A DNA stretch of 64,000 bases from Baekduia soli (lineage in GTDB: Bacteria > Actinomycetota > Thermoleophilia > Solirubrobacterales > Solirubrobacteraceae), in contig NZ_CP042430.1 of NCBI RefSeq assembly GCF_007970665.1, positions 3,100,001 to 3,164,000 of the forward strand, in the 5' to 3' direction. The number at the start of each line of letters is the position of its first letter. The stretch's first letter is position 1. The position numbers were made by a program, and so were the translations under genes. The notes under the pieces are model-generated. The model was not told the DNA's origin and did no database searches. It was given only the letters and a program-made list of their open reading frames with translations. Shown in pieces: positions 26,509-42,134 of the stretch.

Positions 26509-26763
26509 TCAGGCGCGGGCGGGACGGGCCCCGGCGAGATAGGCCACCGCCGCGTCGACGCTGACGAGCTGCGCGGCGTCGCGGTCGGGGATCTCCACGC
26601 CGCCCTGCTCGGCGAGCGCCGCGACGAGGTTGAACACGTCCATCGAGTCGAGGTCGAGGTCGCGGCGCAGGTCGGCGCCCGGCGGCAGGGCGGCCAGGTC
26701 GGCGTCGGGCGCGATCTCGCCCAGGCAGGTCATGAGCAGGTCACGGGCGGCGGCGGGGGTCAC
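26509..26763 (-). CDS. Acyl carrier protein
   Basis: An 84-residue four-helix carrier protein. Ser40 in DLDLDSMDVFNLV is the phosphopantetheine attachment site; the context D-S-M-D is normal for ACP-like domains. Acidic overall, of typical length. GTG 26763 overlaps the stop of the E2 acyltransferase (GTGA), so it is translationally coupled as the last gene of the acetoin/2-oxoacid dehydrogenase operon. An ACP there is unusual; it may receive the acyl group made by E2 or have an independent role. Confidence 0.88.
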   Translation of the reverse strand: MTPAAARDLLMTCLGEIAPDADLAALPPGADLRRDLDLDSMDVFNLVAALAEQGGVEIPDRDAAQLVSVDAAVAYLAGARPARA

Positions 26764-28025
26764 AGCGCATCGGGCTCCTGGAGGTGGCGGTCGACGGCGA
26801 CGAGCAGGCGGCTGGCGGCGTGGCCGTCGCTGACGCGATGGTCGGCCGTCAGCGTCGCGATGACGCTGGGGCGGGCGCCGACCATGCCGTCGCGGGCCAG
26901 CGGGCGCTCGGCGATCCGCCCGAAGCCGACGAGCGCGACCTGCGGCGGGAAGATCACGCCCTGGACGAGGTCGGCGCCCTGGTCGCCGAGGTTCGTCACG
27001 GTGATGCTCGCCCCGGCGGCGTCGGCGCCGCGCAGGACGCCGCGCCGGGCGCGGGCGGTGAGCCCGCGCAGGGCGGTCATGAGCTCGGGCAGGGCCAGCG
27101 CGTCGGCGCCGGGGATCGCCGGGGCGATGATCCCGCCGTCGCGCAGCGCGATCGCGACGCCGAGGTCGACGCGCGGCGCCGCGGTGAGGATCCCTTCCTC
27201 GTAGGTCCCGTTGAGCCCGGGCACGTCGCGGGCGGCCAGGACGACGGCGCGCAGCAGCACGGCGGCGGGCAGCAGGCGCTGGGCCGGCGGCCGCTGCTGG
27301 TTGTAGGCCTGCAGCCACGCGGTCGCGGCCGAGAGGTCGATCGTCTGCTGGACGCTGAAGTGGGGGATCTCGCGCTTGGAGCGCGCCATGAGCGCCGCCA
27401 CGGCCGCCCGCAGCGATGCGCGGCGCTCGGCGTCGCTGCGCCGCGCGGCGCCCGCGGGCGGGGCGGCCTCGGCGGCCGGCGCCGGCGGAGCGGGCGCCGG
27501 GACGGCCTCGGTCGCGGTCCCGGCGGCCGCGGCGCGCACGTCGTCGCCGACGATCACGCCGCCGGGCCCCGAGCCGGTCACGCGGTCGAGGTCGACGCCC
27601 AGCGCGCCGGCCATGCGCCGTGCCAGCGGGCTCACGCGCCGCCGCCCGGCGGGCCCGTCCGCGGGCGCCGGGACGACCGCCACCGCGACGACGGGCGTCG
27701 GGACGACCGGCGGGGGCACCGGCGCCGGCCCGGCCGGGGGCGCCGGTGGGGCCGGGGGCGCCGACGCGGCCGCGGCGGCCTGCGGCGCGTCGGCCGGCCG
27801 CAGCGTGGCCAGCACGGTGCCCACGGGCACCTTGGTGCCGGGCGCCACGACGAGCGTGTCGACGACGCCCTCGTCGAAGGACTCGATGTCGATCTCGGCC
27901 TTGTCGGTGTCGACGGTGGCCATGATGTCGCCGCGGCGGACGCGGTCGCCCGGCGCCACGTGCCAGGTCAGCAGCCGGCCGGCGACCATGTCGGCTCCCA
28001 GCGTGGGCATCGTCAGCTCGGGCAC
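26760..28025 (-). CDS. acoC: Dihydrolipoamide acyltransferase E2 (acetoin/2-oxoacid dehydrogenase)
   Basis: A 421-residue E2 with a single N-terminal lipoyl domain (Lys42 in VDTDKAEID), a Pro/Ala linker, a peripheral subunit-binding domain (VSPLARRMAGALGVDLDRVTGSGPGG) and a C-terminal catalytic domain ending with His396-RVSDG, the HxxxDG active site. It takes the acyl group from E1-bound thiamine and passes it to CoA. The GTG start directly follows the E1 beta stop (TAGGTG). Which 2-oxoacid or acetoin is used cannot be decided from E2 alone; the symbol reflects the most likely family. Confidence 0.9.
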   Translation of the reverse strand: MPELTMPTLGADMVAGRLLTWHVAPGDRVRRGDIMATVDTDKAEIDIESFDEGVVDTLVVAPGTKVPVGTVLATLRPADAPQAAAAASAPPAPPAPPAGPAPVPPPVVPTPVVAVAVVPAPADGPAGRRRVSPLARRMAGALGVDLDRVTGSGPGGVIVGDDVRAAAAGTATEAVPAPAPPAPAAEAAPPAGAARRSDAERRASLRAAVAALMARSKREIPHFSVQQTIDLSAATAWLQAYNQQRPPAQRLLPAAVLLRAVVLAARDVPGLNGTYEEGILTAAPRVDLGVAIALRDGGIIAPAIPGADALALPELMTALRGLTARARRGVLRGADAAGASITVTNLGDQGADLVQGVIFPPQVALVGFGRIAERPLARDGMVGARPSVIATLTADHRVSDGHAASRLLVAVDRHLQEPDAL

Positions 28026-29018
28026 CTAGCCGCCCAGCCCCATCGCGTGGACCGCGGCGACGACGCGGCGGGGCTGGGGCAGCGCGGCGTCCTCGAGGTG
28101 CTTGGCATAGGGCAGCGGCACCTCGGCGGTGCACACGCGGGCCACCGGCGCGTCGAGCTCGTAGAACGCGTGCTCGGTGATCCGCGCGCTGACCTCTGCG
28201 CTCAGCCCCACGCTGCGCCAGCCCTCGTCGACGACGACCGCCCGGTGCGTGCGCCCGACCGTCGCCGCGATGGCCTCCGTGTCCAGCGGCCGCAGCACGC
28301 GCAGGTCGAGGACCTCGGCCGACACGCCCTCCTCGGCCAGCGCGTCCGCGGCGGCCAGCGCCACGTGGACGGCCTGGGAGGAGGCGATGAGCGACACGTC
28401 GGTGCCCGCCCGGCGCACGGCCGCGTGGTCGAGGTCGACGGGTCCGGGCCCCGGCGGCGGGCCCTCCATGGCGTAGAGCGAGCCGTGCTCGAAGATCACG
28501 ACCGGGTCCGGGTCGCGCAGCGCCCCGGCCAGCATCCAGCGCGCGTCGTCCATCGTGGCCGGCGCCAGGACGCGCAGCCCCGGCACGTGGGCGTACCAGC
28601 CCTCGAGCGAGTGCGAGTGCTGGGCGGCGAGCTGCCGGCCCCCCCCGGTCGTCATCCGCACGACCAGCGGCACGTGGAACTGACCGCCGGACATGTGCGA
28701 CAGCGACGCGGCGGTGTTGACGATCTGGTCGAGGGCCAGGAGCGAGAAGTTCACCGTCATGACCTCGACGATCGGGAGCATCCCGCCCAGCGCCGCCCCG
28801 ATCCCGGCGCCCATGAACGCCGACTCCGACAGCGGCGTGTCGCGGATGCGCTCGGGGCCGAACTCGTCCAGCAGGCCGCGGCTGACCCCGAACGAGCCGC
28901 CGTAGCGCCCGACGTCCTCGCCGAGCAGGAACACGCGTTCGTCGCCGGCCAGCGCGTCGCGCAGCCCGTCGTGCAGCGCCTGGCGGTAGGTCGTCGTGCC
29001 GGCCGTGACGTCGGTCAT
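28026..29018 (-). CDS. acoB: Acetoin/2-oxoacid dehydrogenase E1 component, beta subunit
   Basis: A 330-residue transketolase-C-type subunit pairing with E1 alpha to form the thiamine-diphosphate site. Landmarks: [59 protein letters not shown] and the C-terminal [31 protein letters not shown] 29018 overlaps the alpha-subunit stop. The whole set resembles AcoAB of acetoin cleavage and the closely related E1 subunits of PDH/BCDH; length and order fit AcoAB. Confidence 0.9.
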
Positions 29019-29986
29019 GCCGCGGGCACCTCGGTGAGCACGAAGCGCTCGAGATCCTCCACGGGCTCCAGCGTGCCGGCGCGCGCGAAGGCGACGGCGT
29101 CGTCCATCTCGGCGGCGACGTCGGCCTCCATCGCGGCCAGCCCCGCGTCGTCCAGCGCGCCCTCCTCGCGGAGCACGGCGGTCTGCAGCGCGAGCGGGTC
29201 ACGCGCGGTCCAGCGGGCGATCTCCTCCTTGCTGCGGTAGAGGTCGGGGTCGTACATCGAATGCGCGCGGAAGCGGTACGTCCGCGCCTCCAGGAAGCAC
29301 GGCCCGCCGCCGCCGCGCACCATCGCGGCCTGCTCGGCCGCGGCGGCCGCGACCGCCTCGACGTCCATGCCGTCGACCGACCACGCCGGGACCTCGTAGG
29401 ACGAGGCCTTGAGCACGAGGTCGGTCTGGGACTCCGAGCGCTCCAGGGCCGTGCCCATGGCGTATTGGTTGTTCTCGCACACGAAGAGGACCGGAAGGCG
29501 CCAGAGCGCGGCGAGGTTCAGCGCCTCGTGGAACTCGCCCTCGGCGATCGCGCCCTCGCCGAAGAAGCAGGCCGTCACGCGGCGCTCGCCCCGCATCCGG
29601 GCGGCCAGCGCCAGGCCCACGGCCAGCGGCAGGCCGCCGCCCACGATCGCGTTGCCGCCGAAGAACCGCGTGCCGGCGTCGAAGAGGTGCATGGACCCGC
29701 CACGGCCGTGGCTGCAGCCCTCCTGGCGGCCGAGCATCTCGGCCAGGATGGCGCGCGCCGGGATGCCGCGGGCCAGCGCGTGGCCGTGCTCGCGGTAGGT
29801 GCCGACGACGTCGTCCTCGGGGGTCAGGGCCTGCATCACCCCGACGGCGACGGCCTCCTCGCCGATGTAGACGTGCAGGAAGCCGCGGATCTCGCCGGCG
29901 CTGTAGAGCTCGATGCAGCGCTCCTCCAGGCGCCGGATCCGCAGCATCGCGCGCAGCAGGCCGACGCCGTCGGGCGCGGCGGTCAT
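29015..29986 (-). CDS. acoA: Acetoin/2-oxoacid dehydrogenase E1 component, alpha subunit
   Basis: A 323-residue ThDP-dependent E1 alpha. The thiamine motif runs from [21 protein letters not shown] to ENNQYAMGT (GDG...NN type, with Gly-Glu-Gly). [14 protein letters not shown] and [14 protein letters not shown] are strongly AcoA-like, and the phosphorylation-loop region is short, as in AcoA. ATG 29986 overlaps the ligase stop (ATGA). It decarboxylates or cleaves the substrate and passes the acyl unit to lipoyl-E2. No E3 (lipoamide dehydrogenase) gene is in the window. Confidence 0.9.
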
Positions 29987-31710
29987 CGGGTGGCCTCGAC
30001 CGTCGAGACGTCGCCCTCGGGCAGGCCGAGCTCCTGGGCGCGCACGAGCCGGCGCATGATCTTGCCGCTGCGCGTGCGGGGCAGCGTGTCCACCACGTCG
30101 ATCCGGCGCGGCGCGATCGCCGGTCCCAGGCGGCGGCGCGCGAATGCCCGCAACTCCCGCCGCAGCTCCGCCGTGTCGGCGTGCCCGGGTGCCGGCACGA
30201 CCTTGGCGATGACGACCTGGCCGGCGATGGGGTCGGGGATGCCGATGGCGGCGGCCTCCACCACGGCGGCGTGCTCGCACAGCACGCTCTCGATCTCGAA
30301 GGGCCCGACGAGGTGGCCGGCGGTCTTGATGACGTCGTCGCCGCGGCCCAGGAACCAGTACCAGCCGTCCTCGTCACGGCGCGCCAGGTCGCCGCTGAGG
30401 TACCAGTCGCCGGCGAAGCAGGCGCTCGTCCGCGCGGGCTCACCGACGTACTCGCAGAACATGGACGGCCAGCCCGCCCGCAGGAGCAGCTCGCCGGGCT
30501 CGCCGGCCGCCTCCACGAGCTCGGGCCGGCCGAAGGCGTCGCGCACGACGTGCCCCTCGGCGTCGCGGCGCGCGAGCGCCGCCTCGATGCCCGGGAACGG
30601 GCGGCCCATGGCGCCCGGCCGGACCGGGTCGCCCGGGAGGTTGGCCACCATGATGGCCCCGGTCTCGGTCTGCCACCAGGTGTCGTGGATCTCGTGGCCG
30701 AGGACGCGGCGGCCCCACCGGACCGCGTCGGCGGCCAGCGGCTCGCCGACGGAGGCCGTGAGGCGCAGCGCCCCGAGGTCGTGGTCGCCGCGGGCCTCCT
30801 CGCCGGCACGCATGAGCATCCGGATCGCCGTCGGCGCCGTGTACCAGACGTTGACGCGCTCGCGGGCCAGCGTCGCGTACCAGCGGTCGGCGTCGAACTC
30901 GGCCTCGTCGACGACGACCGTGACGCCCCGGGTCAGCGGTCCGATGATGCCGTAGGACGTGCCGGTCACCCAGCCGGGATCGGCCGTGCACCAGAAGACG
31001 TCGTCCTCGTGCAGGTCGAGCGCGAGCGCGCTCGTGGCGTGGTGGGCGACGACCGCGCGGTGGGCGTGCAGCGCGCCCTTGGGCGTGCCGGTCGTGCCGC
31101 TCGTGAAGTGCAGCAGCGCCGGGTCGTCGGGCTCGGTCGCGGCCATGGGGGCGGGGGTGGCGGCGGCCAGGCGCGCGGGCAGGTCCTCGGCGAGCAGGAC
31201 GTGGCGCAGGCCCGACAGGCCGTCGACGAGGTCGGCGACCTTGCGCTCGTGCAGCTCGCGGGTGGTCACGAGCACGCGGGCGTCGCCCCGCTGCAGGCGC
31301 ACGCGGACCGGCTCGGGCCCGAACGCCGAGAACAGGGGGCAGAACACCGCGCCGTGGCGCAGGGTGCCGAGGGCGGCGACGTAGAGCTCGGGGATGCGGC
31401 CGGCCAGTGCGAAGACGCGCTCGCCGCGCTGCACGCCGAGCTCCTGCAGGAGCCCCGCGAAGCGGGCCGCCCGGTCGGTCAGCTCGGCGTAGGTGAGGTC
31501 GACCCGCGTGCCGTCGCGGCCGAGCCACCGCAGGGCCACCCGCCCCGCGCCCGGGCCCGCGGCGTGGCGGTCCAGGGCCTCGTGGGCGATGTTCAGGCCG
31601 CCTCCGGGCAGCCCGTCGAGCGCCGCCGCCGCCTCCGCCCAGGAGAACCCCGCACCGGCCTCGGAGGAGGCCGGCGTGGTGGGGGTCGGGCTGGGGGCGA
31701 CGGTGCGCAT
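29983..31710 (-). CDS. acsA: Acetyl-CoA synthetase-like AMP-forming ligase
   Basis: A 575-residue ANL enzyme with the acetate-CoA ligase signatures: [82 protein letters not shown] and [10 protein letters not shown] with the regulated catalytic lysine. It resembles the shorter AcsA type. ATG 31710 has GGAGG at 5 bp. As first gene of the operon it could supply acetyl-CoA or recycle acetate from acetaldehyde released by acetoin cleavage. Confidence 0.9.
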
Positions 31711-36427: not shown

Positions 36428-37537
36428 TCAGGACGGCGGCGCCGGCGGCTTGGCGCCCGCCAGGATCGAGTACTCGAAGTGCGCCATCCCGGTGGTCCCG
36501 CCGGGCCCGGTCACGAACCGCGGGAACTCGGTCGGGCCGATGCGTCGGCGCACCGGCACGTGCGCGGGGCCCGAGCGCTCGCCCTCGGTCCCCGTCGGGT
36601 AGCGGTCGACCTCGATCGTCTCCGGGCCGCGGTAGACGCCCGCGCTGCCGTGGTCGGCCCAGCCGCCGTAGTAGCCCAGGCCCTGCACGTCGGCCGGCGC
36701 GCCGGCGACCGCGAGCTCGTAGCGGCGGGTGACGCCCTCCTCGTCGACGAGGTCGACGGTCCCGACCGGGCCGGCGGGGCCCACCTGCAGGTCGTGCGCG
36801 ATGGAGCGCAGCCCCACCGACCGCCCGTCGTCGAAGTCCAGGCGGCCCTCGAAGTCCAGCGTCTCGCCGTCGCGGTCCTCGTGGGTGTTGAAGAAGCCGC
36901 AGTGGTCGCCGACCTGGAACGGCATCCACAGCCGCAGCGCGCGGCGGTCGCGCTGCACGCCGGGCTCCTCGATGCCGCCGAAGCGGGTGGGCGGCCCCAT
37001 GCTCGCGCGGATGCCCCACGAGTGGTCGCGCATCGCGTGCCAGCCGTCGACCTCCAGGTCCCGGCCATCGCAGCGCACCGTGCCCGTGGCCCGGCAGACC
37101 TGCGTGTAGCGCAGCGTGTCGCCGATGATCCGCCCGTGCTTGACGGTCTGGTAGCGCTCCTCCACGAACGGCGGGGCCTGGACGGCGAACGTGACGTCGA
37201 ACGCGAAGCCCGCGTCGTTCTCCTCCAGGACGAGCCGGTGGCGCTCCATGAGCTGCTCGACGTCGAGGCGGATGGGCCCGGCGGCCAACTCGCTGTAGCG
37301 CGGGCGCAGCGTCCGCGACGCCCGCACGCAGCGCTGCTCGCCGTCGTGGGTCAGGCCGGCGAAGCCGTCGATCGTGTTCGTGTTGGGGTGCAGGCGCAGG
37401 CCCGCCAGGACGTACCAGTCGGCCGCGTAGAACGCGAAGAAGTACCCGTCGTTGAAGTGCGGGTCCGACGTGGCCAGCATGTTGAACGGCGTGGGGTGCT
37501 GGTGGAACGGCAGGTCGTCGACGTCGTTCAGCTGCAT
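36428..37537 (-). CDS. Double-lipocalin-like (DUF7064/7065-type) protein of a fatty-acid operon
   Basis: A 369-residue soluble protein, rich in aromatic residues and predicted beta strands, with DGYFFAFYAADWYVLAGLRLHPNTN in the first half and DHSWGIRASMG and WMPFQVGDHCGFFNTHED in the second. The pattern recalls AttH/CrtC-like paired lipocalin barrels and the DUF7064-type proteins found near acyl-CoA genes, but the match is from memory. ATG 37537 overlaps the kinase stop by 10 bp, making it the last gene of the AidB-like operon. Lipid or sterol binding is inference only. Confidence 0.65.
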   Translation of the reverse strand: MQLNDVDDLPFHQHPTPFNMLATSDPHFNDGYFFAFYAADWYVLAGLRLHPNTNTIDGFAGLTHDGEQRCVRASRTLRPRYSELAAGPIRLDVEQLMERHRLVLEENDAGFAFDVTFAVQAPPFVEERYQTVKHGRIIGDTLRYTQVCRATGTVRCDGRDLEVDGWHAMRDHSWGIRASMGPPTRFGGIEEPGVQRDRRALRLWMPFQVGDHCGFFNTHEDRDGETLDFEGRLDFDDGRSVGLRSIAHDLQVGPAGPVGTVDLVDEEGVTRRYELAVAGAPADVQGLGYYGGWADHGSAGVYRGPETIEVDRYPTGTEGERSGPAHVPVRRRIGPTEFPRFVTGPGGTTGMAHFEYSILAGAKPPAPPS

Positions 37538-38634
37538 GGGTCTCCCGGGTGGGCGGTGCGGACGGATGGGGTCAGGCTCGGCACGCCGGCGGTGGCGGCG
37601 GCCCGCTCGAGCAGCTCGGGCACACCGTCGGCGAACGCGGCGAGGTAGGGATCGTCGCTGCCGCCCTGCACGGCCCGGCGGTGGATGCCCTCCATGGCCA
37701 CGGCGAGCTTCCACAGCGCCAGCGTCTGGTACCAGGCGATCGCGCCGGTGCTCCGGCCGCTGCGCTCGTGGTAGCGCGCGACGAGCTCCGCGCGGGTCGG
37801 GAAGCCGCCCGACCGCGTGACCGTGGAGAGGTCGAACATGCGCAGCGGCGGGTCGTCGGGCTGGACCCAGAACGCGCACAGGTAGCCCACGTCGGCCAGC
37901 GGATCGCCGAGCGTCGACATCTCCCAGTCCAGGATGGCGACGACGCGCGGCGGCGCCTGCGGCGCGTACATCGTGTTGCCCAGGCGGTAGTCGCCGTGGA
38001 CGATCGTCGTCGCGGGCGACTCGGGCAGGTGGTCGCCGAGCCACGTGGCCAGGCGCCCGAACACGGGCAGGTCGCGGGTCCGGCTGAGCTCCCACAGGCC
38101 CTCGAAGCGGCGGACCTGGCGGGCCAGGTAGCCGGCGGGGCGCCCGAAGCCCTGCAGGCCGCAGGCCCGCCAGTCGACGGCGTGCAGGCCGACGAGCGCG
38201 TCGACCAGGGCGTCGGCGATCGCGCCCTCGCCCCCGGCCAGCGACTCCGGGACCGCGTCGGTGAGCACGTGGCCCGCCATGCGCTCCATGAGGAAGAACG
38301 GCGCGCCGATGACGGCCGGGTCCTCACAGGTGGCGAGGATCGCGGGGACGGGTGCGCGGCCCGCCAGCGCGCCGATGACGCGGGACTCGCGCAGCACGTC
38401 GTGCGAGCTGGGCGGCAGCGGCGGCCGCGGCGGGCGGCGCAGGACGACCTCGGCGCCCTCGCGGGTCAGCACGAACGTCGGGTTGGAGTGCCCGTCACCG
38501 ATGGGCCGGGCGTGCACGGGGCCCGAGCCCAGCCCGTGGGCGTCGAGGAACGCCCGCAGCGGCTCGATCACGAGCAGCGGCGGGCGCGCAGCGCCCGCCG
38601 CGTCCTCGTGGTGCTCGACGACGTCGTCGCTCAC
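37528..38634 (-). CDS. Aminoglycoside-phosphotransferase-like kinase (ACAD10/11-N-terminal type)
   Basis: A 368-residue protein-kinase-fold phosphotransferase. The catalytic loop reads IVHGDYRLGNTMY and the metal motif ILDWEMSTLGDP, the form seen in the kinase parts of ACAD10/ACAD11 and in LvaA rather than in antibiotic-resistance enzymes. A GDGHSNPTFVL segment forms the nucleotide-binding loop. The GTG start overlaps the ligase stop (GTGA). In the cited relatives the kinase phosphorylates 4-hydroxyacyl groups so that the dehydrogenase can remove phosphate; that role is proposed here by analogy. Confidence 0.85.
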   Translation of the reverse strand: MSDDVVEHHEDAAGAARPPLLVIEPLRAFLDAHGLGSGPVHARPIGDGHSNPTFVLTREGAEVVLRRPPRPPLPPSSHDVLRESRVIGALAGRAPVPAILATCEDPAVIGAPFFLMERMAGHVLTDAVPESLAGGEGAIADALVDALVGLHAVDWRACGLQGFGRPAGYLARQVRRFEGLWELSRTRDLPVFGRLATWLGDHLPESPATTIVHGDYRLGNTMYAPQAPPRVVAILDWEMSTLGDPLADVGYLCAFWVQPDDPPLRMFDLSTVTRSGGFPTRAELVARYHERSGRSTGAIAWYQTLALWKLAVAMEGIHRRAVQGGSDDPYLAAFADGVPELLERAAATAGVPSLTPSVRTAHPGDPCS

Positions 38635-40151
38635 GCGGCGCCGTGCGTCGCACGCAGGACGTTCTTGGCCACCTTGCCCAGCCCGGTGCGCGGCAACTCG
38701 GCGGTGAGCTCGACCTGCTTGGGGACCTTGTAGGCCGCCAGCCGCTCCCGGCACCAGGCGCGCACGTCGTCGGCGTCGATCGCCATCCCCGCGTTGGGCA
38801 CGACGATCGCCACGGTGCGCTCGCCCCAGCGCTCGTCGGGCAGCCCGATCACGGCGGCCTCCAACACGCGCGGGTCAGCCATGAGCACGCGCTCGACCTC
38901 GGCGGCGAACACGTTCTCGCCGCCCGACCGGATCATGTCCTTGAGCCGGTCGACGATGTGCAGGTCGCCGTCCTCGTCGCGGCGCGCGAGGTCGCCGGTG
39001 TGCAGCCAGCCGTCGCGGATCGCCGCGGCGGTCGCCTCCGGGTTGCGCCAGTAGCCCTGCATGATCGACGGCGATCGGGCGCACAGCTCGCCGACCGCGC
39101 CGTCGACGACGTCGGCGCCGGTGTCGGGGTCGCGCAGGGCGATCTCGACGCCGGGCACTGCGCGGCCGATCGAGCCGGGCTTGGCGGCCGTCAGCGCCGG
39201 GGCGGCGGCGGTCACGTAGGGGCCGCCCTCCGTCAGCCCGTAGGTCTGGTAGAGGGCCAGCGGGCCGGGCACGGCCTCGCGCAGCTCGTCCAGCACGCCG
39301 AGCTCGCCGAGCGCGCCGCCGTAGATGACGGTGCGCAGCGTGGAGAGGTCGGTGGCGGGCCGGCGCGGGTGGTTGAGCAGCGCGCGCAGCACCGGCGGCA
39401 CGCCGAACAGCGAGGTCACGCCGTCGCGCTCGATGGCCTCCAGCGCGGCGCCGGCCTCGAAGCGCGGCAGGATCCGCAGCGTGGCGTCGACCGACAGGTA
39501 CATCTTGGCGTGGTCCCAGCACGCGCAGTGGAACGAGGGGGCGTGCACGAGATAGGTGTCCTCGGGCCGCGCGCCGTAGCCGATGGCGCCGTAGAACGCG
39601 TCGACGTAGGTCGCGCGCTGGGTGTGGCAGGCGCCCTTGGGCCGGCCCGTGGTGCCGCTGGTGTACAGGATGAGGTGCAGGCCGTCGGGGTCGGGCGCCT
39701 CGAGCTCGGCGGCGGGGTCGGCGCCCGCGCGCCGGCCGGCCCACTCCGCATCGGGCTCCCCGAACCCGACCACGGGGGTGTCCGGCACGGCCCGCGCCGC
39801 CGCCGCGGCGGTCGCCGCGGCGAACTCGGGGCCCGCCAGCACGAGGGAGGGCTCGAGGTCGGCGAGCAGGTACTCGAGCTCGTCGGCGGCACTGAGGTAG
39901 TTCAGCGGGCACAGGACCGCCCCTGCGCGCGCCGCCCCGTAGTACAGCGCCAGGTACTCGGCCGAGGTCGTGTCGATGGCCGCGACGCGGTCGCCCGGCC
40001 CGACCCCGGCGGCCCGCAGCGCGGCGGCGCTGCGGGTGACCTGCTCCTCCAGCTCCCGCCACGTCCACGAGCCCAGGCGGTCGATCACCGCGACGCGGCC
40101 GGGCTGCTGTCCGGCGCCGCGCCGGACGATCGCGTCCAGCGTCATCGTCAC
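38631..40151 (-). CDS. Acyl-CoA synthetase (fatty-acid/AMP-dependent ligase)
   Basis: A 506-residue ANL ligase. Motifs: [44 protein letters not shown] and ELPRTGLGKVAKNVLR with the catalytic Lys. It begins MTMTLDAIVRRGAGQQPGRVAV, a standard start for the family. The GTG start overlaps the AidB-like stop (GTGA); ATG 40145 is an alternative. Placed between the dehydrogenase and kinase genes, so it probably activates the acid that those enzymes process. Confidence 0.9.
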   Translation of the reverse strand: MTMTLDAIVRRGAGQQPGRVAVIDRLGSWTWRELEEQVTRSAAALRAAGVGPGDRVAAIDTTSAEYLALYYGAARAGAVLCPLNYLSAADELEYLLADLEPSLVLAGPEFAAATAAAAARAVPDTPVVGFGEPDAEWAGRRAGADPAAELEAPDPDGLHLILYTSGTTGRPKGACHTQRATYVDAFYGAIGYGARPEDTYLVHAPSFHCACWDHAKMYLSVDATLRILPRFEAGAALEAIERDGVTSLFGVPPVLRALLNHPRRPATDLSTLRTVIYGGALGELGVLDELREAVPGPLALYQTYGLTEGGPYVTAAAPALTAAKPGSIGRAVPGVEIALRDPDTGADVVDGAVGELCARSPSIMQGYWRNPEATAAAIRDGWLHTGDLARRDEDGDLHIVDRLKDMIRSGGENVFAAEVERVLMADPRVLEAAVIGLPDERWGERTVAIVVPNAGMAIDADDVRAWCRERLAAYKVPKQVELTAELPRTGLGKVAKNVLRATHGAA

Positions 40152-41788
40152 GCGGGCACCGCCCGGGCCAGGATCGCCGAGGCGTCGGCGCCCGCCGGCA
40201 GCGTGCCGTAGGACCGCCCGCCCTCGCCCCCCAGCCGCGTCGCGCAGAACGCGTCGGCCACGGGGGCCGGCGCGTGGCGCACCAGCAGCGAGCCCTGCAG
40301 GGCCAGCGCCAGATCCTCGACGGTCCGCCGGGCCGTGAACTGGGCCTCGGCCAGGCGCTGCGCGCGCCCGGTGTCGTCGCCGCCCAGCAGGGCGCCCGTG
40401 GTCTCACGTACGCGTGCGAGGTGCGCGTCGAGCCGGCGGTCGGCTCCCGCCCCGAGCTCGCACTCGGCCAGGAACGCCGGCAGCGCCTCGGGGTCGGTCT
40501 CCATGGCGCGGAGCACGTCGAGGGCCACGACGTTGCCCGAGCCGTCCCAGATGCTGGGCAACCCGGAGTCGCGGAAGTGCTGAGGCAGGCCGGAGTCCTC
40601 GACGTAGCCGTTGCCGCCCAGGCACTCCAGCGCCTCGCCGGCGTGGTCGACGGCACGCTTGCAGACCCCGAACTTCATGACCGCGGTGGCGAAGCGGCGG
40701 AAGGCGGGCTCGTCGTCGTCGTAGGCGCGGGCCACGCGCAGTGCCGCGACGGTCGCGGCCTCGGACTCGAGCTGGAGGTCGGCCAGCACGTTGCGCATGA
40801 GCGGCAGGTCCGCCAGCGGGGTGCCGAACGCCTCGCGCCGGCGGCAGTGGTGCACGGCCTCCAGCACGCCGCGCCGGATGCTCGCGGTCCCGCCGAGCAG
40901 GCACTCCAGCCGGGTGAAGTTGATCATCGCGATGATGACCGGGATCCCGCGGCCCTCCTCGCCGACCATCCGGGCCCGAGCGCCGCGGTACTCGACCTCG
41001 CTGGAGGCCAGGGCCCGTGTCCCGAGCTTGTCCTTGAGCCGCTGGAACTCCATCCCCGGTCCCCGCTCCACGAGGAAGCACGACAGGCCGCCGGGCGTGC
41101 GGGCCAGGACGAGGAAGTGCTCGCACGTGGGGTGCGAGCAGAACCACTTGTGGCCCCAGAGCTCATAGGTGCCGTCGCCGGCGGGCACGGCGGTCGTCGT
41201 GTTGGTCCGCACGTCCGAGCCGCCCTGGCGCTCGGTCATGACGACGCCGATCTGCGAGTAGGCGCCGAAGTCGCGGCTGACCAGGCGCGGCTCCCACTCG
41301 GCGGCCAGGTCGGGGGCCGCGGCGCGCAGCGCCGGGACGGCCGAGTAGTTCATGGAGATCGGGCACATCACGCCCGTGTTGACGTTGTGCCACAGCATGT
41401 ACATGCCGGCCCGCACGACGTGGGCGCCGGGGCCCGGGTCGGTCCAGGGCAGGGAGTGGATGCCGTGCTCGACGCCCTGGCGCAGCAGCCAGTGCCACGA
41501 GGGGTCGGACTCGACGGCGTCGACGCGGTGGCCGAAGCGGTCGTAGGGGGCCAGGACCGGGGCGTTGCGCTCGGCCCGGAAGGAGTGCTCGCGGGCCTCG
41601 GCCGAGCCGGCCAGGGCGCCGAGGTCGCGCAGGGGTCCGGCGCCCCAGCCGCCGCCCTCGCGCTGCGTGCCCTCCTGGAGGCCGATCCAGGCCTCGTAGG
41701 TGTTGATGGGCTCCAGCGGGACCGACTGGTTGAGCACCTCGCGCACCTGGGGGTGGCTGTCGCCGCTCCGGAGCTGTTCGTCGAGCAT
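40148..41788 (-). CDS. AidB-like acyl-CoA dehydrogenase family protein
   Basis: A 546-residue FAD-binding protein of the AidB branch rather than the shorter beta-oxidation dehydrogenases: N-terminal NQSVPLEPINTYEAW, middle MTERQGGSDVRTNTT, GHKWFCSHPTCEHFLVLART, then DKLGTRALASSEVEYRGA and LGGNGYVEDSGLPQHFRD. E. coli AidB binds FAD and DNA in the adaptive response and has weak dehydrogenase activity. In this operon (ligase, kinase, lipocalin-like) a metabolic role on an acyl-CoA is more likely. ATG 41788 is the first gene of the operon. Confidence 0.88.
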   Translation of the reverse strand: MLDEQLRSGDSHPQVREVLNQSVPLEPINTYEAWIGLQEGTQREGGGWGAGPLRDLGALAGSAEAREHSFRAERNAPVLAPYDRFGHRVDAVESDPSWHWLLRQGVEHGIHSLPWTDPGPGAHVVRAGMYMLWHNVNTGVMCPISMNYSAVPALRAAAPDLAAEWEPRLVSRDFGAYSQIGVVMTERQGGSDVRTNTTTAVPAGDGTYELWGHKWFCSHPTCEHFLVLARTPGGLSCFLVERGPGMEFQRLKDKLGTRALASSEVEYRGARARMVGEEGRGIPVIIAMINFTRLECLLGGTASIRRGVLEAVHHCRRREAFGTPLADLPLMRNVLADLQLESEAATVAALRVARAYDDDEPAFRRFATAVMKFGVCKRAVDHAGEALECLGGNGYVEDSGLPQHFRDSGLPSIWDGSGNVVALDVLRAMETDPEALPAFLAECELGAGADRRLDAHLARVRETTGALLGGDDTGRAQRLAEAQFTARRTVEDLALALQGSLLVRHAPAPVADAFCATRLGGEGGRSYGTLPAGADASAILARAVPA

Positions 41789-42134
41789 CCCGCCGCGTCC
41801 CGTCCTCGTTGCCGAAAGCGTGCCGAGCGTATCGGCCGCCGGGCCGTCGGAACCGCTACCGCAACCAGGCCCGCGCCATGGCTCACCGCTGAGCGCGGCG
41901 CGCGATCGTACCCGGATTCAGCTGCGCTCAATCCAGACTTAGCACTGAACTGCTGTCGGAAGCGCTAGTTTCGGCTTGTCACGAAGGTCACAGATCGGCA
42001 TGTTCATCGCCGGACGCACGGAAGTGTCGTCGGTCACGGTGAGACGGCGGCGCGCGGGGGCCCGTGCGGAACGTTGTGGAGGCCGGCCCCGCCCGGGGTC
42101 GTCCTGAACTGCAGTCCGCACTGGAGGAGACAGG
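41789..42134. other. 346-bp divergent intergenic region, promoters only
   Basis: No gene is supported here. On the minus strand a TACGAT -10-like element (41910-41905) follows TTGAGC (41931-41926) at a short 15-bp spacing, a weak promoter candidate for the AidB-like operon. The section 41910-42010 is the most AT-rich of the region and probably holds both divergent promoters. A GGAGGAG site at the right edge serves the solute-binding protein gene. Confidence 0.4.

Follow-up and report, generated by a model that had tools for sequence, protein, structure and literature searches.

An operon of Baekduia soli encoding an AidB-branch flavoprotein with an aspartate base, a CoA ligase, an LvaA/ACAD11-type kinase and a 25-phosphosteroid lyase homologue: a candidate route for hydroxy acid dehydration

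Introduction

The genome of Baekduia soli (5.2 Mb in a single contig, 75% GC), placed by its relatives in the Solirubrobacterales of the Thermoleophilia, carries an operon in which a flavoprotein of the AidB branch is encoded together with a CoA ligase, a kinase and a homologue of 25-phosphosteroid lyase (25-PSL). The operon was studied within a 64,000-nucleotide stretch of contig NZ_CP042430.1 (positions 3,100,001 to 3,164,000), called the window here, and lies at 36428-41788 on its minus strand as four intact, co-directional open reading frames (ORFs). These encode an acyl-CoA dehydrogenase (ACAD) of the AidB branch (P0001), the CoA ligase (P0002), an APH-fold kinase (P0003) and a double lipocalin (P0004). 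We propose, with about an even chance of being right, that the operon encodes a pathway that dehydrates a CoA-activated hydroxy acid at the expense of ATP, in which P0004 would remove the phosphate and P0001 would act on the same acyl-CoA series as a neofunctionalised AidB flavoprotein.

The functions, the substrate, the reactions and their order, and the assignment of phosphate removal to P0004 and not to the ACAD, are predictions; what the sequence itself shows is which genes are present, how they are arranged, which catalytic residues are conserved, the lineage of each protein and the E-to-D change. The ligase P0002 would convert a hydroxy acid to its acyl-CoA, P0003 would phosphorylate the hydroxyl group of that acyl-CoA as a kinase of the LvaA/ACAD11 type, and P0004 would eliminate the phosphate to leave an alkene. 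With its Asp base and remodelled active site, P0001 would most likely perform an alpha-proton abstraction, desaturation or isomerisation within the same series, letting the product into beta-oxidation.

A first-pass annotation had described four overlapping genes at this locus, and they are present as described. It had pointed to the motifs HGDYRLGN and LDWEMSTLGDP, both of which P0003 carries; its comparison of this kinase with LvaA and ACAD10/ACAD11 is borne out by tree and residues, its placement of the dehydrogenase in the AidB branch by domains and tree, and its double lipocalin by structure prediction and Foldseek. What is added is the relationship of the lipocalin to 25-PSL and the change of the flavoprotein's base at D415.

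The Lipocalin, the Kinase and the Ligase

The genes overlap tightly, by GTGA (4 nt) between ACAD and ligase and again between ligase and kinase, and by 10 nt between kinase and lipocalin, which implies a single transcript for all four. Third-position GC (GC3) is 0.97-0.99 across the ORFs, as expected of real genes in a genome of this composition.

P0004 (36428..37537, minus strand, 369 aa) matches the Rv3169 family NF053593 at 233.8 bits (cut-off 150; 2.8e-69), and its only sequence relatives with structures are the 25-PSL entries 9FZN, 9G2I and 9G4C (phmmer 1.1e-28 to 9FZN), whose identity as 25-PSL is taken from PDB entry names and ligands. Its AlphaFold2 (AF2) model (pLDDT 78.7) is a double lipocalin, matched by Foldseek to 25-PSL over the full length at 4.8e-28 with a template modelling (TM) score of 0.77-0.80; AttH, kievitone hydratase and pericyclases are weaker structural matches. 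Entry 9G4C, the product complex of 25-PSL, differs from 9FZN by an Asp-to-Asn change in RDRSWG, and the equivalent residue of P0004, D171 of RDHSWG (codon 37025..37027, minus strand), is invariant in an 11-member alignment. The kinase/lyase pair of Sterolibacterium denitrificans performs an ATP-dependent dehydration of a tertiary alcohol, 25-PSL removing the phosphate after the kinase has acted; the lyase gene is called unknown or putative in the papers concerned (PMC8449060, PMC11061730). As a homologue of 25-PSL, P0004 is a better candidate for phosphate elimination than the ACAD, and the operon would hold a dedicated phosphate eliminase of its own.

Other DUF7065/Rv3169-family proteins of the host genome also adjoin APH kinases. 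In one such region (genome positions 345000-361000), a ligase, a DUF7065/Rv3169-like protein, an APH kinase, an enoyl-CoA hydratase, a methylcrotonyl-CoA carboxylase (MCC)-like carboxylase and a 3-hydroxy-3-methylglutaryl (HMG)-CoA lyase form a CoA-catabolic cluster, possibly a kinase/phospholyase entry to a leucine- or isoprenoid-type pathway. Among the loci from the wider comparison, L238 (5710-9200) has an Rv3169-family gene lying between two APH-like kinase genes.

P0003 (37528..38634, minus strand, 368 aa) has an APH domain (1.9e-48); among solved structures it comes nearest to 9O56, to 3DXP and to the mouse ACAD11 kinase domain (8V3V/8V3U). It keeps R82-E83, R172, D215, N220 and D236, corresponding to the protein kinase-like (PKL) catalytic residues and two CoA-contacting Arg residues. 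All 25 kinases compared conserve the catalytic Asp, which is D215 in P0003 (HGD; codon 37990..37992, minus strand) and D220 in mouse ACAD11, together with the catalytic Asn, the alpha-C Arg-Glu and the Arg equivalent to R176, which contacts CoA in ACAD11 (PMC12440821). The alpha-C Arg was matched by motif, the numbering of the available ACAD11 chain differing from the published R86. In a maximum-likelihood tree P0003 falls within a clade of eight actinobacterial kinases of the same class (support 100/99), of which four adjoin LvaC-type ACADs (L273, L274, L275 and L277). The evidence that P0003 is of the LvaA/ACAD10-11 lineage is good, but lineage does not prove the substrate. Two paralogues of P0003 (58-59% identity) occur elsewhere in the host genome with no AidB neighbour. 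The ligase P0002 (38631..40151, minus strand, 506 aa, starting from GTG at 40151 or ATG at 40145) has an AMP-binding domain (5e-84) and the C-terminal domain, its nearest PDB entries being 8WEU/8WEV and FadD13.

The AidB-Branch Flavoprotein

P0001 (40148..41788, minus strand, 546 aa) is the first gene product of the operon. It contains AidB_N (2.2e-47; 161.5 bits, cut-off 22.9) and Acyl-CoA_dh_M/1, the ACAD middle and C-terminal domains. Its best PDB relatives are 5EZ3 and E. coli AidB (3DJL), and its AF2 model (pLDDT 93.5) has the full-length AidB fold (Foldseek TM ~0.9). Phylogenetically it belongs to the AidB branch and not to the LvaC branch, lying inside a Solirubrobacterales AidB clade (support 100/100) of which it is the longest branch. 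The position of the catalytic base is occupied by Asp (D415; codon GAC at 40544..40546, minus strand; IWDGSGN for IWEGSGN), where the other 90 of the 91 aligned AidB homologues all have Glu. A DNA search for the motif IWDGSGNV found it in no second genome among 399 genomes of the class and 396 of the phylum (overlapping sets, ~750 in all). On these sequence grounds P0001 is classed in the AidB branch, as a member whose base has changed, and not among the enzymes of the LvaC type.

The change at D415 does not stand by itself. P0001 deviates at 7 columns conserved at >=97%, and 22 other members of the clade deviate at 0-2; besides D415, the near-invariant changes are T147N, M182V, D223E, S259A, V289I and P409G. 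A sequencing error was considered for D415, a matter of one base (GAC for GAG) in one genome, and the six further changes speak against an isolated error. Four of the seven fall in hand-chosen active-site segments, a clustering that is not significant (Fisher p = 0.07). An argument about docking of the electron-transfer flavoprotein (ETF), built on Arg120 of E. coli AidB (PMC3546729), was dropped, the equivalent residue of P0001 being Met129.

Glu and Asp are chemically similar and the fold of P0001 is intact and confidently predicted, so the protein might be an ordinary acyl-CoA dehydrogenase, if a slower one, that uses Asp as its base and passes electrons to ETF, the operon then being a routine side branch of beta-oxidation; the host genome has many other ACAD/ligase operons. 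We regard this as unlikely, given the six other near-invariant changes, the branch length, and the very weak dehydrogenase activity that AidB proteins already have (PMC7432924, PMC3546729). That P0001 keeps a protective or DNA-binding role like that of the DNA-damage protein AidB, and is merely co-transcribed with an unrelated kinase/ligase pathway, would suit a domain architecture that is AidB throughout. It is highly improbable nonetheless: the active site itself has diverged, not just the remainder, the same genome encodes another AidB, in which the usual Glu is present, and close orthologues of P0001 (60-66% identity, those with readable gene calls) lie outside such an operon, with no ligase, kinase or lipocalin nearby.

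The Asp base also recalls ACAD10, ACAD11 and LvaC, in which Asp takes the place of the catalytic Glu and of which ACAD10 and ACAD11 showed no dehydrogenase activity of the classical kind (PMC12440821, PMC11342911). In the alignment D415 falls opposite the Asp that is invariant in LvaC-type ACADs. P0001 might therefore be the phosphate eliminase itself, a second and convergent origin of the ACAD10/11/LvaC reaction with an Asp base and a redox-neutral flavin, leaving P0004 to a different task, for example a second dehydration. Besides this hallmark replacement, unique among the 91 AidBs and accompanied by the other near-invariant changes, such a role would fit an operon that, like lva, contains an LvaA-type kinase and a ligase. 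It would also fit position D295, altered in only 4 of the 91 AidBs, all of them kinase-linked (Glu in P0001, Tyr in three alphaproteobacterial proteins); as there are two lineages and the change in P0001 is conservative, a tie between this alteration and kinase linkage is suggestive only. However, the HxMR motif and the upstream Arg of the ACAD10/11-LvaC eliminases are absent from P0001 in the alignment. The phosphate-binding residues R626, H634 and R637 of ACAD11, whose replacement disrupts activity (PMC12440821), have as their counterparts M288, either E295 or a gap, and G299. Elimination of the ACAD11 type by P0001 is disfavoured because these residues are missing, and the alphaproteobacterial AidBs beside LvaA-type kinases retain Glu. 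We consider it improbable that P0001 is the eliminase. The wider consequence would be that the ACAD family twice evolved a redox-neutral way of removing a phosphorylated hydroxyl with Asp as base, the second time from the AidB branch beside an LvaA-type kinase, and that AidB-branch proteins in general are perhaps acyl-CoA enzymes of hydroxy acid metabolism, not DNA-protection factors; this is a little less probable still.

Distribution and Genomic Context

The first-pass annotation had regarded the combination of AidB with this kinase as a new pairing, to be checked by a neighbourhood search. That view is only partly right: three alphaproteobacterial genomes have operons of ligase, AidB (with Glu), short-chain dehydrogenase/reductase (SDR), kinase and GNAT, and the kinases are of the LvaA type. 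Because these kinases group with ACAD11 and 3DXP, AidB and an LvaA-type kinase have been joined at least twice. These operons, at L105, L106 and L109 in sponge-type alphaproteobacteria, are lva-like, with AidB (Glu) replacing LvaC, and are placed behind transporter-like genes. A search of the literature turned up no publication that connects AidB to the LvaA/ACAD11-type kinase class. The other genome of the same genus that was sampled yielded no P0004-like gene, and such genes are rare across the class. The gene caller was a simple one, with this window as its training set, and it overlooks genes in loci of lower GC, which makes absences from a neighbourhood weaker in distant genomes than in close ones.

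Upstream of the operon, an intergenic region (41789..42134) separates it from a divergent gene on the plus strand (42135/42174-43547); it contains weak inverted repeats only, with no convincing operator or shared promoter logic. The product of the divergent gene is a substrate-binding lipoprotein of the Peripla_BP_6 type whose signal resembles a twin-arginine one; it could import the substrate of the operon, although no permease genes adjoin its gene. Elsewhere in the window (26509-31710, minus strand), what seems, from the translations alone, to be a single operon encodes two E1-like dehydrogenase subunits, a lipoyl E2-like acyltransferase and an acyl-carrier-like protein of 84 aa, with a gene for 575 aa upstream. 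It would be unusual for a 2-oxo acid dehydrogenase complex to have a carrier protein of its own.

Comparison with Known Dehydration Systems

The lva operon of Pseudomonas putida and mammalian ACAD10 and ACAD11 resemble the present system in that ligase, LvaA-type kinase and ACAD are encoded together, in the Asp for Glu of the ACAD, and in the conserved catalytic and CoA-contact residues of the kinase. Unlike them, this operon has an ACAD of the AidB branch without HxMR and the upstream Arg, and an extra 25-PSL-type lyase; unlike lva, its four genes include neither the levulinyl-CoA reductase LvaD (an SDR) nor LvaB. The earlier suggestion of an ACAD10/11- or Lva-like pathway is partly upheld: the type of kinase agrees with it, as does the catalytic Asp, which it had not mentioned, but the eliminating enzyme is likelier to be the lipocalin. 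With the 25-hydroxysteroid kinase and 25-PSL of S. denitrificans the operon shares a kinase and a double-lipocalin phospholyase for a two-step ATP-dependent dehydration, along with the fold and catalytic Asp of the lyase. It differs in its kinase, since P0003 belongs to the acyl-CoA (LvaA/ACAD11) lineage and is no more than a distant relative of the APH-like entry 9FSG, which is probably the steroid kinase, and in its additional genes for a CoA ligase and an ACAD; a steroid substrate is not implied.

P0001 shares AidB_N, the ACAD core and the fold with E. coli AidB, M. smegmatis FadE8 and P. aeruginosa PA3972, and is set apart from this family by its base, the other near-invariant changes and its operon partners. 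In Mycobacterium tuberculosis the gene of an APH-fold kinase, Rv3168, likewise adjoins an Rv3169-family gene (PMC5340868). That reported operon has two genes, unlike the four here. Its kinase, for which we take 3ATS to be the structure, is distant from P0003 (38.8 bits).

Several points weigh against the pathway proposed here. LvaA-type kinases elsewhere adjoin LvaC-type ACADs and not a PSL-type lyase, the two being joined solely here among the loci examined. Along its full length P0004 shares only ~24% identity with 25-PSL. 25-PSL works on a free steroid bearing the phosphate of a tertiary alcohol, but a kinase of the P0003 lineage is expected to act on a secondary 4-hydroxyacyl-CoA. Separate genes for LvaC-type ACADs, moreover, are encoded elsewhere in the host genome and could be the partners of P0003.

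Significance

The operon unites two ATP-dependent dehydration modules that were discovered separately, the LvaA/ACAD11-type kinase and the 25-PSL-type lyase. This suggests that Rv3169-family proteins, including the member from M. tuberculosis, may be phospholyases. The operon also makes the physiological substrate of one AidB-branch flavoprotein directly approachable, since P0001 sits with enzymes of types whose chemistry is known: a CoA ligase, a 4-hydroxyacyl-CoA-type kinase and a putative phospholyase.

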